Part shown: positions 6,422 to 23,575 of the stretch, piece after piece
Layout: every line of letters starts with the position of its first letter
Position numbering within the stretch: the first letter of the stretch is position 1
From: an uncultured Porphyromonadaceae bacterium
GTDB taxonomy: Bacteria; Bacteroidota; Bacteroidia; Bacteroidales; Muribaculaceae
DNA length: 37,752 nt
Direction of reading: 5' to 3'
Assembly (NCBI GenBank): GCA_947177365.1
Contig: CAMWUD010000002.1
Span: forward strand, 1 to 37,752
Translations under genes and position numbers: made by a program
Notes under the pieces: generated by a model
Told to the model about the DNA's origin: nothing
The model's input: only the letters and a program-made list of their open reading frames with translations
The model's database searches: none

Positions 6422-6587
6422 TTTGCAATGATTGAGGTTGGAAAAAAATAACAAATCCCGGTTGAGCTGACTGCTTGCGCTCAATCGGGAAACGTCCACA
6501 CCTTGCCTGGCCGGTCGGAGTCGGCATGCCTTGCCGTCCGGCTATGCACGGCACACCCACTTCCCGGGGCGTTCGCAATGCAGCGGA

Positions 6588-6785
6588 AAGGCAGGTCTTC
6601 TGACTCATCCCTGTCTGCCGCGCCTTCCCGGCCTTTACGGCCAGTGACATGTTGCGGTTGACTTTAGCCTGACGACTGCGCACATCTTCAGGCAGGAATT
6701 ACAGCAGCGGGTACTGTCGGGGATTCTCACCCCGTTCCCATTTAATGCCCGGACAGATGTCCTGAGCAACCATTCCGGCGACAAA
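6588..6785 (-). promoter_or_regulatory. Cobalamin (B12) riboswitch controlling the 6421->1027 operon
   Basis: Minus strand contains the B12-box-like AGTCAGAAGACCTGCC (+ strand ggcaggtcttctgact) plus a GTCACTGGCC segment and GC-rich stems characteristic of cobalamin riboswitches, located 5' of the surface-uptake operon. Confidence 0.9.
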
Positions 6786-6843
6786 ATTAGTGAAAATCCG
6801 CGATACGGCAAAACCGGCAGAGAAAATTATGGGAAATATGGAA

Positions 6844-6902: not shown

Positions 6903-7544
6903 TTAGAATACTCCCTCTTGCTTGAGCTGGTTCACACGGTTTTGGATTGCTCCGTAGCGGTCGCCAAGTCTGTTTTTGCGTTCTTGTCCGATACCGTATT
7001 CTCCACGGATTACCTTCAGGGCTTCAGCTTCGACATCATCCGATACATTGTTGTCAGCAACTGCGACAGCTTGAGCCGGAGTTTCAACAGGTTCCGTTGC
7101 TGCATCGGTAGTGGCGATTGAGGCATTCTCATCATTAGCAGCGTCGTCGGCGGATACGTTTTCATCGGCAGGCAGCGCTGGTTCTTCAGCTGCTTCCTCA
7201 TTCAAGCTGTCGGTAGGAACTACCACTTCTGTCGTAACATCTTCAGCCGATTGAGAGTCTGAATCATTGCCGGGATACAACCACCATACAAGCAGAACTA
7301 CAGCAATGATGGCCAGAATCAGCCAAAGCCATTTGTTGTTGCTCTTGTCTGTACTGTCCGCTGCTCCGGAAACGGTAGCTGTGCCTTGCGTTGCAGGTGC
7401 AACCGGGGCAGCAGGAGCAGGATTAGGAGCCGCAACCGATTCTTCGTCATCTTTGGAGAGATCGAATTTTCGTTTGCCACCCTTTGACATGTCAAAAGTA
7501 TGACCGGCACCTTTATTTAACTGGAATTTGTTTTTATCTGCCAT
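6903..7544 (-). CDS. Single-pass membrane protein with TerD-like N-terminal motifs and C-terminal CW_7 (Cpl-7-type) domain
   Basis: N-term KFQLNKGAGHTFDMSKGGKRKFDLSKDD; TM segment KWLWLILAIIAVVLLVWWLYPG; acidic low-complexity stalk; C-term ALKVIRGEYGIGQERKNRLGDRYGAIQNRVNQL matches the CW_7 repeat pattern (VIxGxxGNGxERxxxLxxxYxxVQxxVN). Confidence 0.75.
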   Translation of the reverse strand: MADKNKFQLNKGAGHTFDMSKGGKRKFDLSKDDEESVAAPNPAPAAPVAPATQGTATVSGAADSTDKSNNKWLWLILAIIAVVLLVWWLYPGNDSDSQSAEDVTTEVVVPTDSLNEEAAEEPALPADENVSADDAANDENASIATTDAATEPVETPAQAVAVADNNVSDDVEAEALKVIRGEYGIGQERKNRLGDRYGAIQNRVNQLKQEGVF

Positions 7545-7550
7545 AGCGGT

Positions 7551-8174
7551 TTATTCTTCAGTGTACATATCAACGAGTGTCTGCAGTCCGCCGTTATAGC
7601 CGTTGCCTACAGCTTCAAACTCCCATTCACCGTCATCATTGATTACGAATCGGGCTGCAACCAGAGCATCTTCCGATTTATAATCCTTGCTGAGTTCGTA
7701 GAAACATAAGGCATCGCCGGACTCCTCGTCAAAGACTGTGATTCTTGCGTTTTCAACTTCGCCAAAGGTCTCTACGTCATCATCGTTGGGAACGTAGACA
7801 GTGGCGGAAATTGCCACTTCCTGTACTTCGGGAGCAATCTTGCTCAGACAGATGTTGATAGTCTCGATACCTCCGGTCAACTCGTCTTTTGCTCCGAGGA
7901 CAGCACCATCGGCACTCATCGGACGAGTTTTTTCAAGATAGTTTTTCTTGTTTCCGAATTTGGCACGGTCGAATGCTTCGGTGCGATTGGCAGAGTTGTA
8001 GAATACGAAACCTTCATCGTTGACAATGGTTCCGTCGATGTTCAGCAACCATGCCTGCGCATCCAGATCGCCTTTCTGCCATGTCAGTTCCACACGTATA
8101 TTGTCAAGTCCCAGGTTCTTCGTTAGCGCGAATCTATCGCCGCCATCGAGTTTTTTAAGTTCGAATCTGCTCAT
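7551..8174 (-). CDS. TerD family protein (paralog 2)
   Basis: ELTWQKGDLDAQAWLLNIDG...FVFYNSANRTEAFDRAKFG...WEFEAVGNGYNGGLQTLVDMY; typical TerD core. Confidence 0.9.
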   Translation of the reverse strand: MSRFELKKLDGGDRFALTKNLGLDNIRVELTWQKGDLDAQAWLLNIDGTIVNDEGFVFYNSANRTEAFDRAKFGNKKNYLEKTRPMSADGAVLGAKDELTGGIETINICLSKIAPEVQEVAISATVYVPNDDDVETFGEVENARITVFDEESGDALCFYELSKDYKSEDALVAARFVINDDGEWEFEAVGNGYNGGLQTLVDMYTEE

Positions 8175-8182
8175 GGCCAGTA

Positions 8183-8821
8183 TTATTGATACATGTCGAC
8201 AAGAGTCTGAAGTCCGCCATCATAGCCTTTGCCGATAGCCTCGAACTCCCAGTCGCCTTCTTCGTTAAGCACGAGTGCTCCGGCAACAACGGCAGTCTCT
8301 GACGAGAAATGCTCCTTCAGGTTATAGGAACACAGCTCCTCGCCGGTTTCTTCATTGGAGATTACAATCTGGGGGTCGCGGACGTCCTTGAAGGTAGTTT
8401 TTTTGCCGCCTTCATTATAGATGGTGACGCAGAATACAATTTCTGTTACCTCAGGGCGAACTTTGGAGAGATCGACGTGCATGGTTTCACCGGCTTCGTC
8501 GTTGCCGCTTTCATCATCGCCCTCGCCCAGGTCATCGGCGGAGCCGACTACAGAGCCGTCGAAGCTGACGGGAACGGTGTTGTCCCGCCAGTTCTTTTTG
8601 CTTCCGTATTTTGCGCGGTCATATGCTTCGGAGCGGTTATTGGACTTATAATAGACGAAGTCGGCATCTTCGGAGATCACGCCGTCGTCGTTCAGCAGAA
8701 ACGCTGACGCATCAAGGTCGGCACCCGATTTCCAGTTGAGGTCGACTTGGATTGCAGAAAGTTCGTCACCCTTGCCGAGTGAAAACTTCTCACCTTTTGA
8801 AAGGTCAAATTTTTTTGCCAT
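8183..8821 (-). CDS. TerD family protein (paralog 1)
   Basis: MAKKFDLSKGEKFSLGKGDELSAIQVDLNWKSGADLDASAFLLNDDG...FVYYKSNNRSEAYDRAKYG...WEFEAIGKGYDGGLQTLVDMY. Confidence 0.93.
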   Translation of the reverse strand: MAKKFDLSKGEKFSLGKGDELSAIQVDLNWKSGADLDASAFLLNDDGVISEDADFVYYKSNNRSEAYDRAKYGSKKNWRDNTVPVSFDGSVVGSADDLGEGDDESGNDEAGETMHVDLSKVRPEVTEIVFCVTIYNEGGKKTTFKDVRDPQIVISNEETGEELCSYNLKEHFSSETAVVAGALVLNEEGDWEFEAIGKGYDGGLQTLVDMYQ

Positions 8822-8840
8822 GGTTTATTGTATTATGTTA

Positions 8841-10664
8841 TTAGATTTTTCTGTATTCAGCAAGCAGCTTTTTGTATTCAGCCGCATTTACACCGGCGCT
8901 TTCGCATAATCCGATAAAATCCTGGATTTCCTTGATTATACGGTTTATTTGTTCTCTGTTTTTCGTCTTGCGGTATTCGTCAATGCCGGATTGACGCAAG
9001 CGGACTCCTTTTTGAGTGCGGATAATCTCAGTCAGGATTCTTGCCTGAGTGTGATTTTGCTGTTCTCTATACCAGTCGCGGGCCTCTTTGAGTTTGCCTT
9101 GTTGCAGAAGGGTCCGGACGTTGTCTGGGTCTGTTCCTGAGTTAAGATTCTTTACAGCCTCATTCGCCTGCTTATGAATCCGGCCACCGATAGTACGCCA
9201 GTCTCCTTTACCTCCGGCAGCTGATGAAACCCATACCCACTTGCCATTGGGGTGGATGTCTCCATCCTTGTGTTTCTGTCTGGCAGGCTTGGGCTCCTCA
9301 TAGACAATCAGAGAAAGTTCTTTTTCTATTGATGCAATGAGAGCGTCAGCTCCGTTTTCTTTTTTTACGGTGTCCAGAAACTTATTCAGAGTGGTTCGTG
9401 CATCCGAAGAATTGCCGGAACGGATTTTCCCTTTCGCAGCGGCCTTGACTTCGCGCCACTGTCTTTCAAGAGCCTTGATTGCATCGTGATTGACTACCTG
9501 CTCCGGCATTTCAACAATTGTTTTGTTGTCGCTTACAGGAGCAGCAGTCATGATGTCCGGTATCTCAGGCACGATTAAATCCGCTTCTGCCGGCGGGATA
9601 ACTTCAGCAATAAGCAGGCTCATGGTGTTGTTGCGGAGCTTTTTGTCGGTTCTTATGGTTCTGGAGAACCCAGGACTGAGATTCCGCTCGAAATACGAAT
9701 TTCCGGCGGCATTGCCACGCAATAGCAAAAGCACACCCTCGCGATTTGCAATGTCGTTGTCTCTGAGAAATCGATCTAAAGATTCCCTTAATGAAACGCT
9801 GTCCGGGCTTTGGATGCAATCAATGGTGCTGCGGTTCAGACTGTAATGATACGTTCCACCGTCGGAGAGTGTCACCATGCCATTGACAAGCGGCTGGGAT
9901 GAACAGAGAAAGTCGGAAGCAAGCTTGTCGAGGGTATTCTCTTCGTTATCCCTTGGCAACCATTGGTTCTGATAGATGACGCTTTTCCAGATCATATCCT
10001 TGACATAGTCCTTCCGGGGGTCTATGCCTAAATTCTCATAGCATTGCACCACGGGCCCGGAGCCGTCATTTACATTAAAAAGCGAAAGAGTCAGATCGGC
10101 GCCTTCTGTCCATGCGACAAGCACGTTGTCACAGGCACATTCTTTTGACAACGACTCGCGTATGAATCTGCCTATGTATCGGTCGTATTCCACAACCTTG
10201 ACACGATTATAGCCACTGTCCTTGAAAAGCTCCTGAAGCAGAACGCGTTCATTGGGTCTGATGTCCGACTCGCATGCAATTACAAGAGGAACATTGGCAC
10301 GGTTGTCGCTCAAAGAGCCATAGCGGTTGAAGAGCACAAGGCGGAAAAAATCCGAGAATATCAATTCCGAGGCATCAAGCAGGAGATTCCTGATTGGTCT
10401 GGTCTGTCCGCCGATTGTGTAGGTGCTGTCTTCGACTATTCGTTTAAAATAATTGTCGAATGCGTTTGAGGTCCCGGCATGGGCGGCACGCAGGGCGTCT
10501 TCGCCTACTACTATGCCGGTATCCGAACAGTAAAAAGCCAACGGAGCCGGCCAATTGCCGCCAGGCATTGGCAATAGTCTGTTCTCACCGTCGCGTTGCC
10601 AGTATTCATAGGATACGCGGCGGTGAGATATCGAGATTATTATTTTGTAACTGTCTCCGGTCAT
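8841..10664 (-). CDS. Divergent Hsp70/actin-fold (ASKHA-like) protein with C-terminal KWVW...GDWR motif region
   Basis: N-term IIISISHRRVSYEYW...GIVVGEDALRAA resembles the Hsp70-like phosphate-1/adjacent region; 'FSDFFRLVLFNRYG', 'VLVAWTEGADLTLSLFNV' resembles phosphate 2. Start overlaps the upstream stop (ATGA). Confidence 0.55.
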   Translation of the reverse strand: MTGDSYKIIISISHRRVSYEYWQRDGENRLLPMPGGNWPAPLAFYCSDTGIVVGEDALRAAHAGTSNAFDNYFKRIVEDSTYTIGGQTRPIRNLLLDASELIFSDFFRLVLFNRYGSLSDNRANVPLVIACESDIRPNERVLLQELFKDSGYNRVKVVEYDRYIGRFIRESLSKECACDNVLVAWTEGADLTLSLFNVNDGSGPVVQCYENLGIDPRKDYVKDMIWKSVIYQNQWLPRDNEENTLDKLASDFLCSSQPLVNGMVTLSDGGTYHYSLNRSTIDCIQSPDSVSLRESLDRFLRDNDIANREGVLLLLRGNAAGNSYFERNLSPGFSRTIRTDKKLRNNTMSLLIAEVIPPAEADLIVPEIPDIMTAAPVSDNKTIVEMPEQVVNHDAIKALERQWREVKAAAKGKIRSGNSSDARTTLNKFLDTVKKENGADALIASIEKELSLIVYEEPKPARQKHKDGDIHPNGKWVWVSSAAGGKGDWRTIGGRIHKQANEAVKNLNSGTDPDNVRTLLQQGKLKEARDWYREQQNHTQARILTEIIRTQKGVRLRQSGIDEYRKTKNREQINRIIKEIQDFIGLCESAGVNAAEYKKLLAEYRKI

Positions 10665-13600
10665 TTCAGCATGTCCAACAAAGTTTTGTCATAAAATTTC
10701 ATGCCTTCAAGGATTATCACCGGGGCTACAAAACTGAAAGCTTTGCCTCCTTGCTGAGACTCCCTGACGGCGGCACGGAACTCCGGCATATTCTGCACAT
10801 ATCCTGAAATGCTCATTTCCCGACAGGCTGCTTCAAGCATGGCCGGGTTTACCTGCCATCCGAACAATTGACGCGCTGCCGAATAGAAGAAACCACAGAA
10901 TTCGGTGAATTTGTCTGCTTGCGGCCGGTTGTTGTCTGTACGCAGTCTGATTCCAATCTGTTCGAGCATGGCGGGTGTTATGGAATTTGTAAACTCAATA
11001 GGCCGTGCGATGTTGTCGTTGCCTGTGAGTTCGAATCCGGACTCGCCGATTATCTCTGACGGCTGCTGATTGCGGGGGCGCTGCAGGATGGTATCGCCCT
11101 TGGCCAGACCCTTCGACACCTCATATTTGATACTTGTGTCGTGAAGCTGCGGCAACTTGATCTGTTGCCAGCCGGCCAAAGTCTCTTTCATATGTTTTTC
11201 GCCATATCCCATCACGAACATCTGACCATAGTATTGCTTTGCGGCTTCGGAATTGATTGTGTCGAGCCACTGGAAGAGGCGGGAGCCCTTGCCGGCGAAT
11301 GTCACGCGTACGTTCGGTTTATTGCGTGACGGCCATTCGGTTTCGGGTGTCTTGTTCAAGTCGTCGATAAGCTTATGCGCCACCTGTCCGGCATAGTACA
11401 TGAGCAGACCGGTCACATACATGTTGACACACATCAGCTGAGGGCAGTCGGCTGCTATTCGCTGATAAAACTTTTCCAGCTGATTGTCGTCAAGGCGATT
11501 GACTATCTGGTCGAAGAAGTATGGCGCAGTGTGCTCATTGTAGGTGTCATTGCCGAAATTCAGCCCTACCATTTTGATATGGAACTCGGCGCAGATTGAA
11601 TTGAGAACATTTTTAAACTCAGGGAATCGCGACACAGACTGAGACACGCGCTGGGCGGCAAAACGCAGTGAGTTCTGTTTAATCATGGTAATGCCGCCTC
11701 TAAGATAAAACAGGGCAGAGATGTCGGTGGTACTTCCTCCTACGTCAAAGCAGAGATTCAGAACATTTGCCTCGGTACCATACTTCACGGAAATGAAATT
11801 GGCCACCGCTTCCGCCTCGGAAAGACTCGCATTGGATCTGGCATTGGCCATGGTGTACATAGGTTCCGGGTCGTAGGAAACCTCTTTGTCGGGATTGTCC
11901 GGCATAAAATCTTCCGCAGCTGTCGCGGATGGGACATGTGCCGGTTCTTCAGCAGAGGCGCCGAAAGCCGAATCTTCGCCGAATGTGTTCTGGCCGCCGA
12001 ATCCGCCGCCGAATCCGCCGCCGAATCCGCCGTTGCCATTGCCACCGAATCCGCCACCGAATCCGCTATTGCCATTTCCACCGAATCCCCCACCGAATCC
12101 ATTGTCGGCATCCGCTGAGGACTGACCGGTGGCTCCAAAGGCTCCGTTACCGATGTTTGCGCCTAACTGGCCGTTGCCAGTATACCGGCTGATGTTCAGC
12201 TCATATCTATCGCCATTCTCTTTAAGAACGGGAACCACATTTTTTATACTGTCCCAGATGGTCTGGTATGAATAAAGCAGCTGCCCGGCCATGGCCGACG
12301 GATATGACCACTTGATGCTTTCCGGCACAAAACCGTCGGCAAACAAGGTGGCATATACCTGAAGCATGAGTGTCCGCAGGAATGCGCTCTTGTAGGCTTT
12401 GTCATCGTCGGTATCCTCCCATTTCATGTTATGGATCTGCGTTACTTCTCCCACGCCGTTCGGATATCGCAGTGTGATTTTGTTCTTCTCTGAATTGGCG
12501 AAAGGCAGGTTGTCGGAGAAACTGGGGAAACCGCCAACTACCTCTTTCTCGTTTCTCATTTTAAGAGATTCTCCGGGTTTGAGCGCTGGCAGGCGCCGGT
12601 TGTCGTGGATTGTCAGTACACTCTTTATGGCGTTTGACATTACTGACGAACCCGCTCCCTGGAAGAAAAACACCTGGTTTTCCCTGGGTACAAGAGGTTT
12701 TCCGGGAAGCTCGTTCCCAAGAAGCGAGACTCGCTGGTTTCTGAAGATAAACCCTTGTTCCTGTGTGTTGTCGCTTGAATAGGCAATAGATGTGTTGGTA
12801 CTTCCGAAGTCAATGCCTAAACGGACAGGATTGAGCGATGAATGGGAGCCGGGGCGCATCCAGTCATGCGGCAGTCCGCTGTTTATTGCCGAACTGTAAT
12901 TTATCAGAAGGTAGCCCCCTTCTTTGTCGGTAGGGGAAAGCAGTCGCACTCCTTTGAACGGTTTGTCGGAACGATATATCTCGTATTTGTACGGATTGTC
13001 GGCGACTGCTTCATCGGATATTACCATCAGTTCCGACTTCACTACGTTTTCGGGTGCGACAATGCGTCCGTTCTCGCTCAGAAACACCGGTGCCTGTTCT
13101 TTGTCAACGATAATGCGGAAATAGTCGCCCTGCATGTCGCCGACGAACGGGAAGGCACGGTACGACGAGCTTGTCCCGTAATGCGGAAGTTCGTTGTACA
13201 TGAAGTAGGCATCCCATTGCCGGGAGATGAAATTCGGCCAGATAAGGATGTCCTTGTTCATGATTTCACAGTCAGATGTATATACTTTCTTGAACTGTCG
13301 GCGTATGCCGGAATCGGTGACAAGTGTAAGTACGACTTCAAGGTTGCCGCTGCGTACCATCGGGTCATACGTGGCTTTAAGTGTGGAAGCGATGGCGCTT
13401 GACGAGCCGGACATGCCCACAAGTGCCGCTACGTTCTTGCCGAATACGTTTAATCCCTGTGCACTCAGCGGGAGTGCGAAGTATGCCTTGTCCTGCATTC
13501 CTTTCACATCTGCGGTCAGAACCAGAATAGGCAGATTCACCATGTCGGCGGGACTGACATTCAGATTAAGCTTGGCAATACGCGCAGAGTCGTCGAGCAA

Positions 13601-14572
13601 TAGATTCTTTGGGTCGAACTCCACTCCGCCATTCATCTCATTTTCTGAAATGATGCCTTCGACGCCATTGAGAATATCCTTATGGCAGAACAATTTTTCA
13701 AACGGGCCTCCGAACGCCGCGCTTACAGGCGGAGTGCTGCCGATGGAAAGAGCTATGCCGTCGCGCTCGGCACGTTCTGCAATTTCCTCCTTCCACTTGC
13801 TCAGCAGAGTGCGGATTGAAGTATAGTTGACTCCTTCGCCGTCGGGAAGTGCCTTATAGTAGTCTTCCGCATTGCCGAGTCCATTCAGGATATGGCTGAC
13901 ATAAGCATGCAGGGTGGCAATCTGCATAGGCTTCATCGACGATTTGAGAGGGTCGATGAACTTACCGGTTACAACATCAATCCAAGGCAGTTCGTCGTCG
14001 GATTCGCATTTATAACCGGAGGATGTGAACAGCAGTGATTCGGGCGCAGTGGCTCCTACTACCGTTTTTCGGTATTTTATTACGTTTATAAACGGAGTCG
14101 CAGTCTGGTTGTCGGTGAGATTCTGGTCGCACCAGCGGTTCCTGCGGCGGAGCAGCATATTTCCGAATGCGCCTTTTGGCTCGTAGATGTTCTCTGTCTT
14201 GGCTGCTTCTTTGCCGTCGCTGTACGAAAGTTCGATTTTTCTTACGCTGATATGGGCATAGTCCAGAGCCATGCAGGCTATAAGTCCGCGCCATTCGTCA
14301 ACCAGCTGTGTGTAATAGCCTACGAGATTGTTTGCAGCATTGACGCTGCCACTTGTGGCTACATGGTCGATAGCGGTCTTGAACAGGTCGACACGGGCGA
14401 ATGCCGTGGGAATGCCTGAGACAAGTTGTCCGACATTAGTCTTTTTGCTTAATTGCGGTGTGATTATGTTTTTGATGAATACAGTGGTATTGCCAAGCTG
14501 GGACCAGTTGTCGAGTGAACCGGAGGGAATGGCAGATGTATTCACATCAATAGTGAGCGGTTTGTTGGCCAT
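10661..14572 (-). CDS. Large Hsp70/actin-fold ATPase-like protein with Gly/Phe-rich insertion
   Basis: 1303 aa; phosphate-1 motif RLGIDFGSTNTSIAYSS, phosphate-2 motif NLCFDVGGSTTDISALFY, 'VTFAGKGSRLF' adenosine-like motif; FG-rich tract between them; about 590-aa N-terminal region of unknown fold. Confidence 0.75.
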   Translation of the reverse strand: MANKPLTIDVNTSAIPSGSLDNWSQLGNTTVFIKNIITPQLSKKTNVGQLVSGIPTAFARVDLFKTAIDHVATSGSVNAANNLVGYYTQLVDEWRGLIACMALDYAHISVRKIELSYSDGKEAAKTENIYEPKGAFGNMLLRRRNRWCDQNLTDNQTATPFINVIKYRKTVVGATAPESLLFTSSGYKCESDDELPWIDVVTGKFIDPLKSSMKPMQIATLHAYVSHILNGLGNAEDYYKALPDGEGVNYTSIRTLLSKWKEEIAERAERDGIALSIGSTPPVSAAFGGPFEKLFCHKDILNGVEGIISENEMNGGVEFDPKNLLLDDSARIAKLNLNVSPADMVNLPILVLTADVKGMQDKAYFALPLSAQGLNVFGKNVAALVGMSGSSSAIASTLKATYDPMVRSGNLEVVLTLVTDSGIRRQFKKVYTSDCEIMNKDILIWPNFISRQWDAYFMYNELPHYGTSSSYRAFPFVGDMQGDYFRIIVDKEQAPVFLSENGRIVAPENVVKSELMVISDEAVADNPYKYEIYRSDKPFKGVRLLSPTDKEGGYLLINYSSAINSGLPHDWMRPGSHSSLNPVRLGIDFGSTNTSIAYSSDNTQEQGFIFRNQRVSLLGNELPGKPLVPRENQVFFFQGAGSSVMSNAIKSVLTIHDNRRLPALKPGESLKMRNEKEVVGGFPSFSDNLPFANSEKNKITLRYPNGVGEVTQIHNMKWEDTDDDKAYKSAFLRTLMLQVYATLFADGFVPESIKWSYPSAMAGQLLYSYQTIWDSIKNVVPVLKENGDRYELNISRYTGNGQLGANIGNGAFGATGQSSADADNGFGGGFGGNGNSGFGGGFGGNGNGGFGGGFGGGFGGQNTFGEDSAFGASAEEPAHVPSATAAEDFMPDNPDKEVSYDPEPMYTMANARSNASLSEAEAVANFISVKYGTEANVLNLCFDVGGSTTDISALFYLRGGITMIKQNSLRFAAQRVSQSVSRFPEFKNVLNSICAEFHIKMVGLNFGNDTYNEHTAPYFFDQIVNRLDDNQLEKFYQRIAADCPQLMCVNMYVTGLLMYYAGQVAHKLIDDLNKTPETEWPSRNKPNVRVTFAGKGSRLFQWLDTINSEAAKQYYGQMFVMGYGEKHMKETLAGWQQIKLPQLHDTSIKYEVSKGLAKGDTILQRPRNQQPSEIIGESGFELTGNDNIARPIEFTNSITPAMLEQIGIRLRTDNNRPQADKFTEFCGFFYSAARQLFGWQVNPAMLEAACREMSISGYVQNMPEFRAAVRESQQGGKAFSFVAPVIILEGMKFYDKTLLDMLK
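11986..12104 (-). repeat. In-frame GFGGGFGG(N)GN low-complexity repeat tract
   Basis: Repeated ccgccgaat units on the + strand; protein NGFGGGFGGNGNSGFGGGFGGNGNGGFGGGFGGGFGG. Confidence 0.9.
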
Positions 14573-14574
14573 AG

Positions 14575-16245
14575 TTATTCGTTGAAGTGCTGAGCGATAG
14601 TCACAGCGTTATACATCTGTGCGAGGAACTCCTCTTTCAGAGTTGTCGCCTGAGCTTCGACAGGGAGTGTGTCATCGCTTTTGAGAAGGCTTATCAGTGT
14701 ATTGAATCGCCGGTCGGCGGCGGAGTTGAAGACTGCGACTCCGGTTTTGTCCCAATGGTGAGCCTCGTCGTCGAATACTGTTCCCGGGTCTATGTTGTGC
14801 AGACCGTTTATATCTGTGATGAAGGCATCAGGGGAAAAGATGAATTTTCCGGCACCTACGGATTTGAAAATCTGATATATCCAGCCGAATACCACATTGC
14901 TTTTTACAAACTTGTATCCGAATTCCTTCAGATATTCATCGATTTCGGCGCACTGTGCATCCGACAATTCGTTGAAATTGCTGAACTTGGCAGAGTCAAG
15001 ATAGTTAAGCAACTGTGCGGTGCCGCACACTCCTTCATGTGCACCTTCGAACTTCGACAGAATGATGTGCGCAAGCGAAAGCAGGGCACCGAGCTTGTTC
15101 TCGAACACTTCACCGCGTTCCGCGCCCACAAAGCTCGCGCCGGACAGCTGCATGTTCCCATTGTCATCAACCGCCACCGTCCTGAAATCATATTCGGCAT
15201 CTCCGATTTGTTCGAGTTTCGCGCGGTCCTCATTAAAGAAGTCGTATGCGGCAACAGCACACATCAGCTCGGCCACATGGCAGTCGTTGCGCTGTTCATG
15301 GCCACCCGTGACAACGTTTCCTTCCTGACCGTCGGAGTAATTGATTTTCAGACTGCTCGGCCAGCCGATATGATACATTCGCTTGTATGTTTTCTTGACC
15401 GTAGTGTCATCGTTATAGAAACTGAGCGCGGCCTGAGAGTTAAGAGCGAAATTATTGGCGTCGGCTATGATTTTATCAGATGCAAGCTGGTCGTCGGCCG
15501 GTGTTTTGAACGTAAAGTAATCGGTAAGAAGAGTGGAGCCGAACAGAACCTTTTTTAGATTCAATTCGTTATTTCCGCCGGTAAGAATTTTCAGAGCCTC
15601 GCTTATGGCAATCGGCACTACTGGAATCGAGGAAGCTCCGGTGCCACCGAAAACACTGCCGAAAACAAACACTCGCGAGTTTGCCGCGTGCTTGTTGAGC
15701 AGTTCGAGATATTTGGCGAGCTCTTTTTCCTGCGTCTTGACCGTCTCGCCACCTTTCTTTGCATTTATGGCCGCTTCGATGATGCCATGATACATGAGCA
15801 TGGAACCAAGATGTGTCTGTGCCCTGTATCCGTGGTCAAGCTTGAATTGCTGTACCGAATCTTTTTCGAATAGCAGGTCTGACAAATCCTGATTGTCCTG
15901 ACGCTGTTCGTCTGAAAGATTCTTGGTGGCGGCAAGGGCGTGCAGCGTCATCCGGCTTGGAGTGGAGTAGTCGGTGAAGAAGCGGTAGAGCTTCAGTTTG
16001 GCTGAGAAAAAGGTGTTGCTTCGCTGTTCGCCTCCCTGATTTGAGGCATCGTTTGTCTTTACTTTGTTGTATAGCTCGATAAGGCTTTCGACTCTGTCCT
16101 TGTTGCCGTTGTTCTGGTCAGTGTCGAGTGTCAGGACCTCAATGGTCTGGTTGTCGAAGAGTCCGGCAGCACACAGATGCACAAAGGCTTCGAGACACCG
16201 CATTCCGGTACCTCCGATAGCAATCAGAAATAGTTTGTCGTCCAT
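14575..16245 (-). CDS. Tubulin-like (Tubulin_2-type) GTPase-fold protein
   Basis: N-term LFLIAIGGTGMRCLEAFVHL (nucleotide-binding glycine loop), 'VLTLDTDQNN', and 'VFGSVFGGTGASSIPVV' as a degenerate tubulin GGGTG(S/T)G signature. Confidence 0.72.
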   Translation of the reverse strand: MDDKLFLIAIGGTGMRCLEAFVHLCAAGLFDNQTIEVLTLDTDQNNGNKDRVESLIELYNKVKTNDASNQGGEQRSNTFFSAKLKLYRFFTDYSTPSRMTLHALAATKNLSDEQRQDNQDLSDLLFEKDSVQQFKLDHGYRAQTHLGSMLMYHGIIEAAINAKKGGETVKTQEKELAKYLELLNKHAANSRVFVFGSVFGGTGASSIPVVPIAISEALKILTGGNNELNLKKVLFGSTLLTDYFTFKTPADDQLASDKIIADANNFALNSQAALSFYNDDTTVKKTYKRMYHIGWPSSLKINYSDGQEGNVVTGGHEQRNDCHVAELMCAVAAYDFFNEDRAKLEQIGDAEYDFRTVAVDDNGNMQLSGASFVGAERGEVFENKLGALLSLAHIILSKFEGAHEGVCGTAQLLNYLDSAKFSNFNELSDAQCAEIDEYLKEFGYKFVKSNVVFGWIYQIFKSVGAGKFIFSPDAFITDINGLHNIDPGTVFDDEAHHWDKTGVAVFNSAADRRFNTLISLLKSDDTLPVEAQATTLKEEFLAQMYNAVTIAQHFNE

Positions 16246-16263
16246 TGATTGTGCTTTGAGTAA

Positions 16264-16605
16264 TTAGAACCAGGTTCCGACTTTTGAATTCGGGAACATC
16301 TTGCTGACGAGGAATCCGATGAAGATGAACAGCAGAACGCATACACCGGCGGCTATGCCCGAGTGCATGAAATATGCGCTTTGATTGCTCGGTACACTGA
16401 TGCCGCTTCCGATGATGAAGTTGATGATGAATCCCACGACACCGGCAGTGATGCACAGTATCCAGAAGCAGACTCTCCGTTTGGTGGTTCCGGGGTTGTT
16501 GGGTTTGAACAGAATGAGGTTTGAGATTATCACGGCAAGCAGAAATGCCACCACCATGACTACGATTGCCCACATATAGGCTGATGTGATTGATACTTGT
16601 TCCAT
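16264..16605 (-). CDS. Small integral membrane protein (three predicted TM segments)
   Basis: 113 aa with hydrophobic stretches MWAIVVMVVAFLLAVIISNLILF, VCFWILCITAGVVGFIINFIIG, SGIAAGVCVLLFIFIGFLV; colinear in the operon. Confidence 0.75.
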   Translation of the reverse strand: MEQVSITSAYMWAIVVMVVAFLLAVIISNLILFKPNNPGTTKRRVCFWILCITAGVVGFIINFIIGSGISVPSNQSAYFMHSGIAAGVCVLLFIFIGFLVSKMFPNSKVGTWF

Positions 16606-16621
16606 TGTATATAGTTTCGAT

Positions 16622-18133
16622 TTATTCAGAGATTGTCTTGATATAATAAGTGTAGAGGATGCGGCCTTGCGGATTCGACGAGGCGGCTGTCAGTGTTTCC
16701 TTGATTGAATTGGCAAGCGACGGATTGCCGGGACAACCGAAGAATGCATCGGCTTCGGCTATGCAGGGCATGGCTTTTGAAATCACGATGTTGGCTCTGA
16801 ACAGGTCTGTAGAATTTGTGTTCCCCGAGAACGAGCCATCGAACTGACCATCGAAATCAACATTGATTTCATTCCAGCCGGCGGGCATTTCCTTGACTGT
16901 GTGCATAGATGCGGTAAGGAACATATTCACCTCCGGTTTGTTGATGCGTTCTACTTCATCCGCAGAGATTGAGTCGCCTTTCTCCGATATGGCAAGCATG
17001 GTTTCAGCCATGTCAAAGACACGGATTTCCACATCGTCGATTCTGAAGCCGTCCTGAGCGCCAAAGTCAATATAAAGGTCGCTTAACAGATGCTCGTATC
17101 TGATGTCGTCGGGCACACCGGCCTCTTGCATGCGTTTTGCGTTGGTAATGGCATTTTTCCAGTTCACGCCAAGCGGATAATACTCGGCCAGCGCGCCAAG
17201 AGATACGTCGAGTGGCGCGTAGCCGCTTGAGGCTCCGCCGGCTGTGGCAAATGGTTTGCAGTAGCTGACATAGTCATTGGTTCCTCCATTTTCAATGACT
17301 GCGGTCACGAAGTCTGTTCCATTGTCGTTGTGATAGTTGCCGCCTTGTTTGAGGGAGATGTATTTTGTTGCGGTAGGATAGGCGAAATCATGGCTGCCCA
17401 GAACATATTTCGGAGTAGTAGGGGCTGTCATGCCCACCGCGTTTTCGACTAATGAATTCAGACGGTTGGCATTGTCATCGAATACAGCGAGAAACATGTG
17501 CTTGTCTTTGCCGTTCTCAGTAAAATCCCACTTGTAGAAAGTTATGTTATTGCCATTCGAAAGCCACTCAATAAAGTAACGTTTTGCATAAGCAGCCTTT
17601 TCAATACCGGCTCCTTTATATTCTTCAAAATCGGTCATCAGCAGAGCAGGCTGATTTTCAGAGACTATTTGTTGCAATGTGGCTTCAATCGGAGCTTTCT
17701 GCTTGTCGTAGGTGCGTGGGTTGAGCATGTAATTGTACAGCTGGGTGTGCGAATAGTCCAGCGGCTGTATCTTTTCGTCAGCCAATCCATAGAATCTGAT
17801 GGCTTGATTTGCTGCAAGTTTGTTTATAATCGCCTGCAGTATTTTCTTGCTTTCTTCGGTCGAATATGCGTAATTCATGCCGTCGGACATGTCGACGTAT
17901 ACTGATGCGCCGTCATTCAGCAGATGTGTGTCATGTGTAAGTTCGACGTAGCGGTCGAGTTGTACCCGCTGAAAAGTGTATGAAGGCGTTCTTGTCAGTA
18001 GCCATGCCAGCAGGCCGACAATCACTATGACACATGCCAGAGCACCTGCTATAAGGAATCGTGAGGTTGATTTTTTCTTTTTGCCATTACGTGAACGTGT
18101 AGACGAAGATGAATGTGATGACCTGCGAGCCAT
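16622..18133 (-). CDS. Membrane-anchored protein with VWA-like domain
   Basis: Basic/Ser N-terminus, TM FLIAGALACVIVIVGLLAWLL, then 'ASVYVDMSDGMNYAY' (MIDAS-like DxSxG) and 'ALLMTDFEEY'. Confidence 0.55.
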   Translation of the reverse strand: MARRSSHSSSSTRSRNGKKKKSTSRFLIAGALACVIVIVGLLAWLLTRTPSYTFQRVQLDRYVELTHDTHLLNDGASVYVDMSDGMNYAYSTEESKKILQAIINKLAANQAIRFYGLADEKIQPLDYSHTQLYNYMLNPRTYDKQKAPIEATLQQIVSENQPALLMTDFEEYKGAGIEKAAYAKRYFIEWLSNGNNITFYKWDFTENGKDKHMFLAVFDDNANRLNSLVENAVGMTAPTTPKYVLGSHDFAYPTATKYISLKQGGNYHNDNGTDFVTAVIENGGTNDYVSYCKPFATAGGASSGYAPLDVSLGALAEYYPLGVNWKNAITNAKRMQEAGVPDDIRYEHLLSDLYIDFGAQDGFRIDDVEIRVFDMAETMLAISEKGDSISADEVERINKPEVNMFLTASMHTVKEMPAGWNEINVDFDGQFDGSFSGNTNSTDLFRANIVISKAMPCIAEADAFFGCPGNPSLANSIKETLTAASSNPQGRILYTYYIKTISE

Positions 18134-18509: not shown

Positions 18510-18552
18510 TTTGCAAAGTTAAAAATATTTTTTCAAATAACAATACTATGTG

Positions 18553-19093
18553 TTAAGAAACATATCCGAACTGTCTGATTTCTTCGATTCCGTCATGATT
18601 ATGGAAGAATCCGCACACGAGGGTGAGGTATTCGGGCAGAAAGCCGTTGCTGCCCCATAGCAGTTCGATGCCGAAGAGTTCGGATGTGGTGCGTCCGATG
18701 TCGAAACCGTATGATTCAAGCGAGGGTCTGACCAGATCGGGATGCCGGCAGGGCTGGTTTTCAAGCCGTGAACAAGTGCCTTCAGGGCAATACAGGCAGC
18801 TCCCGGCATATGCGAAAGCCTTGCCGCCGTATGTCTTTCCCATGTCGCGCAGTTTCTTTTCAATGCGCAGACGTTCCGGACGAAAGAATCTGTCAACCTC
18901 GGAGAATGGTATTTCTTTGCCGTCGGGCGTGATTCTGGTTGCAAGCAAAAGCACACGGCTGTACTGGCGGAGTTCCGCCATAGTGTCGTGCGTAAACGGC
19001 GGACAGACCCAGACCTTGCCATAATTCCGGCTCTATATATTCATCAGTGGAGATTTCGGCTGTGAAATCCTGTACCTGATATGTGAATGTCAT
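18553..19093 (-). pseudogene. DUF2284-type predicted metal-binding protein, apparently frameshifted
   Basis: 5' part MTFTYQVQDFTAEISTDEYIEPE in one frame; remainder (RNYGKVWVCPPFTHDTMAELRQYSRVLLLATRI...GSCLYCPEGTCSRLENQPCRHPDLVRPSLESYGFDI) in another, with an in-frame TAG just before RNYGKVW. Confidence 0.65.
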
Positions 19094-19842
19094 TTTTCCT
19101 TCTGCCATAACATTTCTTCTAAACTGATATTCGGCGATGAGAATAGCCGTTGAATATGTCCGCTCTGTATCATTTCACTTACCGTGAGGTTGTAAAGTGT
19201 GCCGTTGTCAACCAGAGCTATACAGTCGCACTTCCGGAGCGCCACATCCAGCTCATGGGTTGAGAACAGCACGCATTTGCCTTTGTCGTGCGCCAGAGAG
19301 TGAAGAAGCGATACGAGTTCGTATCGGTTGGGCAAATCAAGGAAAGAGGTGGGTTCGTCAAGAAGTATGGCCGGTGTGTCCTGGGCCAGAGCACGTGCAA
19401 TCATTATACGCTGACATTCTCCGTCGCTCATGGTGTCCATCGTCCGCCGGGCATAGTTCTCCATCCCCACGGCGCTGATGGCATCCATTACTATTTGTCG
19501 GTCGCTTTCCTGCATCCGGCCGATCCAGTTGGTATAAGGCGCGCGACCGATGGCCACGACATCCTCGCACCGCAGATTGGGAATCCGTGTGCGCTCGGTG
19601 GTGACGAATGCAATCGACCTGGCGAGTCCGCCCGGTGAGAGCGAACGTATGTCTTTGCCGTCAAGTATGATTTCGCCCGAATATCGCCGGTTTAGTCCGG
19701 CGAGTGCTCTCAGAAGGGTGGATTTGCCGGAACCGTTACGCCCGATAAGGGCGGTCAGTTGCCCTTTGCCGAAAGAAGTGTTCACGTCCCGGAGCAGGGT
19801 GCGGGGACCGTAGCCTATTGAGAAGTCCTTCAGTTGTATCAT
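19090..19842 (-). CDS. ABC transporter ATP-binding protein (cobalamin/Fe-siderophore type, BtuD/FepC-like)
   Basis: MIQLKDFSIGYG...LTALIGRNGSGKSTLLRALAG (Walker A), MSDGECQRIMIARALAQDTPAILLDEPTSFLD (signature/Walker B); ATGA overlap with the upstream permease stop. Confidence 0.93.
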   Translation of the reverse strand: MIQLKDFSIGYGPRTLLRDVNTSFGKGQLTALIGRNGSGKSTLLRALAGLNRRYSGEIILDGKDIRSLSPGGLARSIAFVTTERTRIPNLRCEDVVAIGRAPYTNWIGRMQESDRQIVMDAISAVGMENYARRTMDTMSDGECQRIMIARALAQDTPAILLDEPTSFLDLPNRYELVSLLHSLAHDKGKCVLFSTHELDVALRKCDCIALVDNGTLYNLTVSEMIQSGHIQRLFSSPNISLEEMLWQKEK

Positions 19843-20840
19843 GCGGTAACGGATTTGTTGCGTAGCACCACCCAGACTACCACCGGGATACCGAGCAGTG
19901 CGGTGATTGCATTGACTGGCAAAGTGAATAGCTTGGAGACGAGATCGCAAAGCAGCAGCACGCAGGCTCCGGTAAGAACTGTTCCGGGTACGAGTATGCG
20001 ATGGTCGCTGTTGTCGAACAGCATCCGGGTGACGTGCGGCATGGCGAGTCCTATAAAGCCGATGGGGCCGCAGAATGCCGTTACTGTTCCTGCAAGCAAA
20101 GTCGTCGACAGAAACAAAAGGCTGCGGGAGCGCCGGATGTCCAGACCCATGGTCACGGCATATTCCTCACCGAAAAGGAGCAGGTTGAGCGCTTTGATGG
20201 TGATGACTGCCAGCGCCAGCCCTGCCGCTACGGCCGGGATAAGGATGTAGAGCTGGGCTACGGTCACATCGCCCAGCGACCCCATTGTCCAGATTACAAA
20301 TGCCTTGAGCGACTCTTCTTTGCTGAGATACTGAAGAATCTGCACTATCGCGCCGACTCCCGACGAGAACATCATGCCGAGAATGAGTATGACCATAATG
20401 TCTTTGATCCGGTGCCCGACAGCAGCTATGACTATTAGTACTGCGGCAGCGCCAATCCATGCGGCTCCGGCAATGCCGAGCGATGTGAAGGATGCCGACA
20501 TCCCGAAAAGCGGCGCGCCGAGAATAAACAGAGCCACACCGAGACTCGCGCCGGAGCTTATGCCGAGGACATAGGGTCCGGCGAGCGGATTGCGGAAGAG
20601 TGTCTGCATCTGGAGGCCGCTCACCGACAGTGCGGCTCCTGCAAGCAGAGCCACAACCGCCTTTATGAGCCGGATGTTGAGTATGATTTTTGCCGTTGTC
20701 CGGGGACAGTCGCCGCCGGTGAGTGCCGCCCACACATCGCGCAACGGCACAGCGACAGACCCCACCGACAGATCCAGCATAAACAGGAACAGAGTGAGTG
20801 CAGTCAGCACTGTGAAGAGAATCGAGGCTCTGGTACGCAT
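19839..20840 (-). CDS. FecCD/BtuC-family ABC permease
   Basis: RLIKAVVALLAGAALSVSGLQMQTLFRNPLAGPYVLGISSGASLGVALF; FCGPIGFIGLAMPHVTRMLF. Confidence 0.95.
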   Translation of the reverse strand: MRTRASILFTVLTALTLFLFMLDLSVGSVAVPLRDVWAALTGGDCPRTTAKIILNIRLIKAVVALLAGAALSVSGLQMQTLFRNPLAGPYVLGISSGASLGVALFILGAPLFGMSASFTSLGIAGAAWIGAAAVLIVIAAVGHRIKDIMVILILGMMFSSGVGAIVQILQYLSKEESLKAFVIWTMGSLGDVTVAQLYILIPAVAAGLALAVITIKALNLLLFGEEYAVTMGLDIRRSRSLLFLSTTLLAGTVTAFCGPIGFIGLAMPHVTRMLFDNSDHRILVPGTVLTGACVLLLCDLVSKLFTLPVNAITALLGIPVVVWVVLRNKSVTA

Positions 20841-22013
20841 TTATTTCAGTTGCTTATAGTACACGAAATCTTCTTCGACGAGTTCGGGATGGAAGATTTT
20901 GACGAGGTCGCGCAGCAGAATATCGGGATGCACCACAGCCGATTCATAATAGTCGTTGCCTCCGGCGGCATTTGTCCTGAGGGTGTTGTTCCAGACATTG
21001 CCGCTGCGGAAGCAGCGGGTGTCGGCGAACTTCGGACATGATGCCTTGAGTTCGTCAAGCGAGCCGGCGTTGCCTACGTTGAGCCACATGTCCGCTTCGG
21101 ATGTGAGGCGATATGCCTCTTCAAGGTCTATGGGCATTGATGTATTGCCGGTGTTCCTGTCATATATGTACTTGCCTCCGGCATCCTTGACAAGACGCGC
21201 TACATAATTCCGGGTCGAGGGCATGAACCAGGAGTCGCCATAAGGAGTGTTGAGCATCACGGCCGGAGCATCGGCTTTGCTGTCGGCCACTTTCTTTTTC
21301 AGCTCGTTGTACCTGGCCGGTATGCCGGCGAAAACCTCTTCGCCGTCGGCACGTCGGCCGACAAGCTCTGAAAGAGCGACTATCCATTCGGCTTTTCCAA
21401 GCGGCGATTCCTCGAGATAGTCGCCTACGTACATGAAGGGTATTCCCAGCTCTTTGAGTTTTCCTTCCATCGAACTTGCTCCGTTTACTCCGTACAGAAG
21501 CACAATGTCCGGGTCGAGTGAGAGGAGCAGTTCGTAGTTGATGTTGCCTTCGTAGCCTATGTCGCCTATGCTGTCGCGCTTTGCTACGATGACAGGATTG
21601 GAAATATAGTCGATGCCGGAGACACCGACCACGCGTCCGGCCTCGCCGATGGCATCAAGCATGGCGATATGCGTGGACGACATAGTCACGATACGGGAGG
21701 CGTCGCCTTCAATAATCTGACCGGTGAAACCTTCGGGAGCCGCCTCGCCGCCTCTGGCTATGAAGAGCTGAGTGCTTATACTGTCGGCGCCCTGCCACGG
21801 ATTTGTTATTGTAATGACGGAACTTTCGTATCCGTCGGCCCCCTTGATGTCGAAGCCGGAGGCATATTCGGGGGGATAGAGCTGTTTGCTGAAATCGCCT
21901 GACGGGGCTGTGCTCCTGCCATTGCAGGCCGCCAGCAGGGCGGTCAGCAGACACAGGCTCAGGAGGGATTTGCACTTTTGCATATTCAGATGAATTTTGG
22001 GTTGTTTCTTCAT
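20841..22013 (-). CDS. Periplasmic/lipoprotein metal-chelate substrate-binding protein (BtuF/FepB-like)
   Basis: Lipobox LLTALLAAC; IVTMSSTHIAMLDAIGEAGRVVGVSG...ELLLSLDPDIVLLYG; start overlaps the upstream stop (ATGA at 22010-22013). Confidence 0.88.
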   Translation of the reverse strand: MKKQPKIHLNMQKCKSLLSLCLLTALLAACNGRSTAPSGDFSKQLYPPEYASGFDIKGADGYESSVITITNPWQGADSISTQLFIARGGEAAPEGFTGQIIEGDASRIVTMSSTHIAMLDAIGEAGRVVGVSGIDYISNPVIVAKRDSIGDIGYEGNINYELLLSLDPDIVLLYGVNGASSMEGKLKELGIPFMYVGDYLEESPLGKAEWIVALSELVGRRADGEEVFAGIPARYNELKKKVADSKADAPAVMLNTPYGDSWFMPSTRNYVARLVKDAGGKYIYDRNTGNTSMPIDLEEAYRLTSEADMWLNVGNAGSLDELKASCPKFADTRCFRSGNVWNNTLRTNAAGGNDYYESAVVHPDILLRDLVKIFHPELVEEDFVYYKQLK

Positions 22014-23575
22014 AGCCCGAAGCATTCGGTCACGGCCTTGCGTATCTTTTCTGCTTCTGGCGACTGGCTGCGGAGTATGTCCAGTATAGTGGTGATGTAC
22101 TGTTCTTTGCCGTTGAGTCCGCAAAGACCGGCTACATTGCTGCCCGGAATCATCGACTTCTGGTTGTAGACCCGCAGCACGCTACGGTAGTCGTTGTCGT
22201 TGAGATACCTGCGGAATTCCTTGCAGAAACTCTCGTAGAGTCCGCGCGGGTTGATTTCGTGTTTCAGGGCGTCCATATGGGCTTCCAGCTGTCCGATGTT
22301 GGCGAAGCGTCCGTCGATACGGTATTCGACAGTCTGTTTCACCCGATGGCGTGTGTGCTGGAGCGCCTGGCGGTGAAGGTCGGTACGGAACTGCTGCATT
22401 ATGCTGTGTCGCACTTTGCCGAATACTTTGTCGGGATTGCGGTGGCAATAGCTGGCCACGGCTCTTACAATATCCTCGAGCATCAGTATGTTCTCTATTT
22501 CCGCCACATCGGGAACCATCACCCGCTTGCGGCGCAGGTAGGCTACCTCGCGCTCGTCGCGACGGTCGCGGTCGACTATGCCCACTGCATCGTTGTGGTG
22601 CATGGCGTTAAGGTCGTTGAATGTGCGTGTGGCTTCTATCACCTTGTTGCAGCTGCCCAGCGATTTCACGCTGTACTCTTTGAATATAAGCGGATAAAGC
22701 TTCGAGTCGATGCTGTGAACGCCATCGCCTTCGATAAACATCACCGGCTTGCGGGCTCCGATCAGGGCACGGTACATGTCGTCGGTGAGCGGAGAGTCGG
22801 GCGGCAGCAGCAGGTAGTCCCATTTCTGGGATGCGGCATCGAAGTCTCTTACCCATATCACCTGTGCTCCGGCGCGGGTGGAGGTGAATTCCAGATCGTG
22901 CGTGGTGTAGGCGAAGCGGCAGTCGGGGCGGAGAAGCTCTAGACGGTTCCACAGAGTCTGCATCATTGACGGGTGCAGGAATATCTCCGGAGAGTCTACG
23001 AAGATTATGCTACCTTTCGGCGCATAGAGGATAGCTCCGGCATAAAACAGCACAGCGCGCTCGCCGTCGCTGAGCCGCAGGGCGGAGTACGCGCTCTGGT
23101 CGAGTCCGCGTGCGAACAGCACCTTGCCGCTTTCAATCAGCACACGGCTGCCCGGAAACACCTCCTGCCACAGCGATATCACACTGTCGAGCCGGGTGGG
23201 GCGCAGACTGATTGCGCCATTTTTGCCGCCGGCCACCATGGCGAGCTTATAGCCAATGAGATTGAGCATCTCATCGTGCATAAGCATGGCGAGTATGCGT
23301 TCGAACTGGCTGCTGTCATCGCCGGAATTCTGCGGCATGCCCGCCTGTTCGTAGAGCGTGTCCACGGAGTTGGCCGTGATGTTGCGCCTCCGTCCGTACA
23401 GAGCCTCGAGAGCGGAGATGCGGAACGCCTTCTCTCCGAGGTCTTCGATAAGGCGGTTGGCAAAGCGTGATTTACCGGCGCCGTTGGCTCCGATAATCAC
23501 TATATCCCGGGTGTCGGAGCCGATGCTTTCGCGGCTGCCGTCGATGCGTTGCGGAAGAGAGAGAAGGCTGTTCAT
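22010..23575 (-). CDS. AAA ATPase with C-terminal DUF4435-like (TOPRIM-like) region
   Basis: Walker A VIIGANGAGKSRF; LSDGERAVLFYAGAILYAPKGSIIFVDSPEIFLHPS (signature/Walker B); C-terminal VMFIEGDGVHSIDSKLYPLIF...AVGIVDRDRRDE. Confidence 0.8.
   Translation of the reverse strand: MNSLLSLPQRIDGSRESIGSDTRDIVIIGANGAGKSRFANRLIEDLGEKAFRISALEALYGRRRNITANSVDTLYEQAGMPQNSGDDSSQFERILAMLMHDEMLNLIGYKLAMVAGGKNGAISLRPTRLDSVISLWQEVFPGSRVLIESGKVLFARGLDQSAYSALRLSDGERAVLFYAGAILYAPKGSIIFVDSPEIFLHPSMMQTLWNRLELLRPDCRFAYTTHDLEFTSTRAGAQVIWVRDFDAASQKWDYLLLPPDSPLTDDMYRALIGARKPVMFIEGDGVHSIDSKLYPLIFKEYSVKSLGSCNKVIEATRTFNDLNAMHHNDAVGIVDRDRRDEREVAYLRRKRVMVPDVAEIENILMLEDIVRAVASYCHRNPDKVFGKVRHSIMQQFRTDLHRQALQHTRHRVKQTVEYRIDGRFANIGQLEAHMDALKHEINPRGLYESFCKEFRRYLNDNDYRSVLRVYNQKSMIPGSNVAGLCGLNGKEQYITTILDILRSQSPEAEKIRKAVTECFGL

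Follow-up and report, generated by a model that had tools for sequence, protein, structure and literature searches.

The stretch of DNA analysed here, called the window, comprises positions 1 to 37,752 of contig CAMWUD010000002.1 in assembly GCA_947177365.1, and it carries at 6903-18133 an operon in which two TerD proteins are encoded together with a tubulin-like protein, two Hsp70-like proteins and membrane proteins with von Willebrand factor A (vWA)-like and CW_7 wall-binding domains. On the minus strand, the eight open reading frames (ORFs) lie at intervals of 16, 18, 2, -4, 19, 8 and 6 nt, counted from the vWA-like gene at the head of the operon to the gene of the CW_7 membrane protein at its end, an arrangement compatible with a single transcription unit; promoter and terminator scans of the operon were uninformative. 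A first-pass annotation of this DNA had reported eight tightly packed minus-strand genes, with a 4-nt overlap at 10661/10664 and a 2-nt gap at 14573-14574, and all of them were found again as described.

The tubulin/Hsp70 core

The first gene of the operon (16622-18133) encodes a protein of 503 amino acids (aa) in which a basic N-terminus is followed by one transmembrane (TM) helix at about residues 21-51 and then by a domain that the annotation had called VWA-like. The AlphaFold model of this protein is confident (pLDDT 90.6), and its PDB matches are dominated by vWA and integrin I-domains, reached only at E 0.03-0.3, which lends weak support to the fold. Residues resembling a metal ion-dependent adhesion site (MIDAS), D81-x-S83 and T167-D168, are conserved among the homologues, with D81 in 37/38, S83 in 34/38 and D168 in 38/38. 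Under the positive-inside rule, a basic N-terminus ahead of a TM helix leaves the following domain outside the cytoplasm; because the single helix of this protein follows such an N-terminus, the vWA-like domain is predicted to sit in the periplasm. The second gene (16264-16605) encodes a small protein of 113 aa with three TM helices by hydropathy, and its homologues occupy the equivalent position in more than 50 loci.

The tubulin-like GTPase (556 aa, 14575-16245) is recognized by its GTP-binding glycine loops, GGTGMR at residues 11-16 and GGTGAS at 200-205, since GGTGMR and GGTGAS(S) are invariant in 35/35 homologues. The Pfam model Tubulin_2 matches the window protein weakly and below the cut-off (5e-4), and it matches 25/35 members of the family, the best at 5e-7. 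Downstream, the largest gene (10661-14572) encodes a 1303-aa ATPase of the Hsp70/ASKHA type, identified by motif conservation and synteny. It contains GIDFGSTN (586-593), DVGGST (943-948) and GKG (1094-1096), and the phosphate-1, phosphate-2 and adenosine motifs are invariant in 32 homologues; ahead of them lies an N-terminal region of about 580 aa with no known domain. Matches of this family to Hsp70 by PDB profile are weak (E 0.05 and worse), and no decisive match came from searching PDB sequences with the profiles of three families, vWA, tubulin and large Hsp70. Between both ATPase motif regions, at residues of about 820-860, there is a Gly/Phe-rich low-complexity insert (FGGGFGG), visible as DNA repeats at 11992-12112 and missing in the shorter homologues aligned.

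The last core gene (8841-10664) encodes a 607-aa protein in which residues of about 1-355 form a nucleotide-binding domain of the Hsp70 type and the C-terminal half is helical; its model (AlphaFold pLDDT 87.6) finds Hsp70 as its best Foldseek match at E 2.7e-13. This protein lacks the aspartate of phosphate-1 as well as the phosphate-2 motif, so that the set of phosphate and adenosine motifs seen in the 1303-aa protein is incomplete. Because the fold is kept and the phosphate motifs are lost, we call it a pseudo-Hsp70, probably not an ATPase. The annotation had proposed two actin-like ATPases: this holds for the 1303-aa protein, with its intact motifs, and probably not for the 607-aa protein, whose motifs are degenerate and whose Hsp70 fold, also proposed there, is upheld by the structure model. 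The other protein types that it named were borne out as well, the two TerD proteins and CW_7 by Pfam, and the tubulin-like protein and the large Hsp70 ATPase by their invariant motifs.

The order vWA-3TM-tubulin-Hsp70-pseudo-Hsp70 is kept in dozens of Bacteroidota loci. Synteny is thus conserved in the gene-neighbourhood comparison that the annotation had suggested, and since the order recurs so often, the array is a real unit and not a chance assembly.

TerD proteins and a candidate wall tether

Two TerD genes follow the core. TerD protein b (212 aa, 8183-8821; Pfam TerD 6.4e-43) matches the solved TerD of Klebsiella (PDB 2kxt/2kxv) at E 2.5e-21, and its acidic residues D35, D37, D88, D96 and E112 are invariant across the TerD alignment; TerD protein a (207 aa, 7551-8174) matches the same Pfam family at 9.1e-34. 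The operon ends with a 213-aa protein (6903-7544) that has a TM helix at about 68-94 and a CW_7 wall-binding domain at 175-207 (Pfam 1.3e-10). Its N-terminal tail, ahead of the helix, contains three repeats, FQLNKG, FDMSKG and FDLSKD, which resemble the N-terminus of the adjacent TerD proteins (KFDLSKGEKFSLGKG).

This resemblance follows the TerD type from locus to locus. Tails of the F type pair with F-type TerD proteins, and tails of a K type (MVELKRKVTLK) pair with a divergent family starting MAEVTLKKKITLRKK, which matches TerD by profile with a probability of 90. In Phocaeicola sartorii, the unusual tail IFTEADFDK adjoins a TerD with the equally unusual start LFSDADFDK. When tails were compared with TerD N-termini, own pairs scored 41.0 on average and shuffled pairs 27.7 (sd 1.9), and 0/20000 shuffles reached as high, a test that overstates independence because related loci share ancestry. 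Counted on the tree, switches of tail and TerD class were concordant in 4/4 independent pairs, with the classes assigned by eye and with a number of pairs that alone cannot reach significance. The outer end of the membrane protein is CW_7 or, in three loci (L030, L033 and L070), OmpA. Both domains are associated with wall binding, and the outer ends therefore support the idea of a tether. From these sequence comparisons, it appears that the mimic tail of the TM/CW_7 protein tethers TerD to the wall. In another locus (L034), TerB is weakly matched within the counterpart of this TM protein. Matches of the window TM protein to SrfA (4e-4) and to the gliding protein GltJ were below the cut-off, fell mostly on its low-complexity part and were rejected.

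Many TerD-type loci carry, in addition, a P-type cation (Ca2+-type) ATPase directly downstream, as well as TerB-like proteins. The pump copy of P. sartorii is recognized by Pfam as E1-E2_ATPase with Cation_ATPase_N and Cation_ATPase_C; a cation channel comes after the pump in L014, L019 and L030, and K+-channel-like genes are present in four loci. The window operon contains no P-type ATPase, channel or TerB-like gene. The annotation had noted the lack of TerC-, TerB- and TerZ-type neighbours, which is right for the window and does not extend to the related loci with their TerB-like proteins and pump. On another contig of the window genome (L128, G000:C127), there is a pump 77% identical to the TerD-linked ones, adjoining an AIM24-family gene. 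The same genome has a second ter locus (L127, G000:C11:14000-23746) with three TerD genes and a divergently oriented gene for a TM/CW_7 protein that has no TerD-like tail.

Distribution, mobility and exchange of the TerD module

When 85,462 species genomes were searched with the 1303-aa family, 80 loci were obtained, nearly all in Bacteroidota, and iterated profiles showed the core order in dozens of these. Cultured carriers include P. sartorii, Prevotella jejuni, Segatella copri, Hufsiella and Xanthocytophaga. By direct search, the large Hsp70 is found in 4/61 close relatives of the window genome, 11/393 genomes of its order and 16/247 of its family. The cassette is conserved and patchily inherited in Bacteroidota.

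The genes behind the core were classified in 94 loci, some of which are near-duplicates of each other: 38 are TerD-type, 11 have DO-GTPase and GAP1, 6 were labelled kinase/PP2C, and the remainder are truncated, carry other genes or consist of the tubulin/Hsp70 pair only. In none of the 94 loci (0/94) do TerD and DO-GTPase/GAP1 occur together in the downstream block. Pfam assigns the proteins of the GTPase block to DO-GTPase2 and GAP1-N2; in L026, one of the GTPases also bears an SH3 domain. One GTPase-type locus (L010) belongs to the window's own genus. In the tree built from the large Hsp70, GTPase loci are scattered among TerD loci, and the supported branches force at least five changes; a single clade for the GTPase type is rejected (p-AU, approximately unbiased test, 7e-35) on what is a quick tree with some long branches, where row L172 (end branch 8.8) was not interpreted. 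Since a single origin of the GTPase type is rejected, the modules were exchanged repeatedly. Most simply, these sequence data can be read as one machine that uses either TerD or DO-GTPase/GAP1 as its input/output module.

Other neighbourhoods were seen behind the same core. A third alternative consists of a PP2C phosphatase and/or a Ser/Thr-kinase-cluster protein (L042, L045, L048, L079, L081 and L100), and a possible fourth module, in L022 and L025, has genes of about 330 aa, 140 aa and 510-616 aa with no family assigned. Three GTPase-type loci, L060 (12980-14422), L066 and L067, also carry a TM protein, with an SH3-like match in L060 (PDB 2kq8, E 3e-4); its N-terminus looks TIR-like by eye, and no tool confirmed this.

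The operon has the marks of an island. Its guanine-plus-cytosine (GC) content is 0.495, compared with 0.54 and 0.57 on the flanks. In the sister genome G028, the flanking genes, which encode a DUF4465 protein and an AriAB homologue, are 431 bp apart, and in the window they are separated by 15.5 kb; this interval also holds ABC-transporter genes (18546-22124), so that the difference from G028 exceeds the operon. Among the related loci, five (L020, L071, L074, L129 and L175) have an integrase immediately upstream of the operon; two of these, L020 and L129, also have a relaxase close by, and in L013 a protein of the relaxase cluster is encoded upstream. In L129, a contig of 17.8 kb from IMG/VR, an operon with K-type TerD stands beside relaxase and tyrosine integrase genes. 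From its gene content, this sole IMG/VR match, although classed as viral, is probably an integrative element rather than a phage. No homologue of the Hsp70 was found in plasmid records, and no homologue of the tubulin-like protein in phage records.

The AriAB homologue of the window, a fused protein of the anti-phage PARIS type at 22010-23575 on the minus strand (PADLOC E 8e-94), is encoded 4 kb upstream of the operon, and the copy in G028 is 84% identical. Among the eight operon proteins, PADLOC gave no known defence family apart from weak matches that were rejected as driven by composition, namely PD-T4-6 on the Pro/Ala-rich TM protein and, on the vWA protein, PDC-S21 (E 0.014). On the other side of the operon, a cobalamin riboswitch (RF00174, 100 bits, E 2e-24) at 6573-6789 on the minus strand precedes genes for DUF4465, a 394-aa protein, a TonB receptor and DUF5074. 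These riboswitch-led genes form a B12-uptake operon, and its likely ABC transporter (18546-22124) is encoded across the TerD operon.

Relation to known systems and possible function

The nearest described relatives of the core are the GTPase-centric conflict systems predicted from sequence by Kaur, Burroughs, Iyer and Aravind (2020; eLife 9:e52696, PMC7159879), in which GAP1-N2 neighbourhoods contain tubulins, HSP70s (one with a nucleotide-binding domain only) and membrane vWA proteins, and for which cytoskeleton-like assemblies were proposed. In that work the tubulin theme belongs to Firmicutes and Actinobacteria, and TerD is mentioned only as a domain of other systems. The window core likewise contains a tubulin-like GTPase and a pair of HSP70s, one of them reduced to the nucleotide-binding domain, and in both cases wall-binding domains are present on some components. 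The membrane protein with an extracellular vWA domain may have its counterpart in the single-TM protein with the vWA-like model (fold matches at E 0.03-0.3). Unlike those systems, the window has TerD and the TM/CW_7 tether, and relatives also have the P-type cation ATPase, in place of DO-GTPase, GAP1 and FNIII; neither DO-GTPase, GAP1 nor an FNIII-repeat protein was matched by Pfam among the window proteins scanned. The window locus is not a member of the GAP1-N2 systems by its defining genes, because DO-GTPase and GAP1 are absent, yet its core is common to loci that are members. The word 'uncharacterised' used in the annotation is accordingly too broad for the core, whose make-up matches these predicted systems (PMC7159879). 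We found no paper that joins TerD with these tubulin and Hsp70 proteins, although a mention in a 2012 paper on Ter systems is possible.

Other known systems were compared with the operon. SrfABC, with the Hsp70-like SrfB, also combines a large Hsp70-like protein with a TM protein, and the NCBIfam model for SrfA touches the 213-aa protein far below its cut-off, whereas TerD or a tubulin is not expected in SrfABC, and SrfB and SrfC had no Pfam match at E 0.1 among the operon proteins. The MoxR AAA+ ATPase of the vWA-MoxR ternary (VMAP) system is not among the eight operon genes. The Jug (jumbo gut) phages, with predicted hosts in Bacteroides and Phocaeicola, are reported to carry and transcribe genes for TerD and for a P-type ATPase of the calcium type (2025 preprint, PMC12363816). 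The pair of TerD and Ca2+ P-type ATPase is the same, and the phage TerD is near those of Bacteroides, Phocaeicola and Prevotella; unlike in our loci, these elements are phage-borne, are not described as one operon, and are reported with no tubulin or Hsp70 partners. TerD-bearing IMG/VR contigs gave only distant TerD matches (29-38% identity) and no relative of the window TM/CW_7 protein. The 'phage' record MT836648 was not used as phage evidence, as its genes look bacterial; they include three TerD genes and the start of a P-type ATPase.

We read the operon as an accessory, horizontally exchanged and envelope-anchored system for conflict or stress, in which TerD has joined the make-up of the predicted tubulin/Hsp70 GTPase-centric immune systems, and give this reading a probability of about one half. 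Because in related genomes the TerD half is swapped for the GTPase module of predicted immune systems, the cassette, so far unstudied, probably works at the membrane against stress or phages. The features described above support the annotation's idea of a membrane-associated assembly that depends on nucleotides and includes an element binding the wall; the functions that it proposed, envelope stress and phage or toxin defence, are possible ones. In such a machine, the vWA domain in the periplasm may sense or grip the envelope, as may the TM/CW_7 protein bound to the wall, and the cytoplasmic tail of the latter, as a copy of the TerD N-terminus, would capture or nucleate TerD beneath the inner membrane. 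The intact Hsp70-type ATPase, regulated by the pseudo-Hsp70 as its partner, would control assembly of the tubulin-like GTPase into a putative polymer acting as a membrane-proximal scaffold. TerD would be the exchangeable sensor or output module in place of DO-GTPase/GAP1; Ca2+ probably drives it, and the linked P-type cation (Ca2+-type) pump would often serve it.

Several points weigh against this reading. Defence or envelope protection is an inferred purpose of the operon. PADLOC recognizes no core protein as a defence family, and the defence genes near some loci (Mokosh, AbiL, Mads and candidate systems) come with no background set and were not used as proof. The vWA fold is matched weakly, polymerization of the tubulin-like protein and Ca2+ binding are predictions, and the tail comparisons carry the shared ancestry and the by-eye classes described with them. 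TerD and the pump could, moreover, equally serve ion homeostasis.

This last point leads to a possible alternative, the foremost one in our view: an envelope and Ca2+-homeostasis machine, in which TerD would buffer or sense membrane Ca2+, the pump would export it, and the tubulin/Hsp70 scaffold would organize the wall under osmotic or ionic stress. The pump beside TerD in many loci, the K+-channel-like genes in four, the wall-binding domains and the invariant acidic residues of TerD all suit such a machine, as does the pump homologue (77% identical) elsewhere in the window genome. A housekeeping function is, however, hard to reconcile with the patchy occurrence within genus, order and family, the lower GC content, the nearly empty site in G028 and the mobility genes of the neighbourhoods, and the swap with a predicted conflict module is equally unlike it.

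A classical tellurite or xenobiotic resistance (Ter) operon with extra genes would account for the two TerD proteins and for the TerB-like partners in relatives, and Ter systems share with our loci TerD paralogues, a vWA-type protein and, in related loci, TerB-like and PP2C/kinase genes. We consider it improbable nonetheless: no match to TerC, TerB or TelA was found among the window proteins, the core also exists in loci with no TerD, and the window genome has its separate three-TerD locus. In Ter systems the vWA proteins are TerF/TerY, whereas the window vWA domain is predicted to be periplasmic, the tubulin and Hsp70 proteins are central, and TerD is apparently tethered to the wall. More improbable still is a TubZ-type cytoskeleton for DNA or plasmid segregation, or one resembling a phage nucleus, placed beside TerD genes by chance; the tubulin-like protein and the mobility genes near relatives are what it would explain, but neither a DNA-binding adaptor nor a centromere-like gene was seen, the linkage to Hsp70, vWA and membrane proteins is steady, and the plasmid and phage records gave no homologues of the Hsp70 and the tubulin, respectively.

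Within the conflict or stress reading, a bolder and rather doubtful version can be drawn, in which gut and environmental Bacteroidota would possess a wall-anchored, calcium-responsive cytoskeletal immune system, with TerD captured under the membrane by a co-evolving mimic tail and with a tubulin/Hsp70 machine that could take either TerD or DO-GTPase/GAP1 as its trigger or effector. If it were true, the TerD and calcium pump of the Bacteroides-infecting jumbo phages would be a countermeasure or a stolen copy.

The mimic tail offers a concrete and falsifiable clue to how TerD is recruited to the envelope and is a plausible new tethering device, and the role of TerD becomes testable, as it should do for the core whatever DO-GTPase/GAP1 does; carriers in culture, such as P. 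sartorii, P. jejuni and S. copri, make such experiments feasible. One shared core links the TerD stress proteins with the GTPase/tubulin/Hsp70 conflict systems, both known so far mostly from their genome context.

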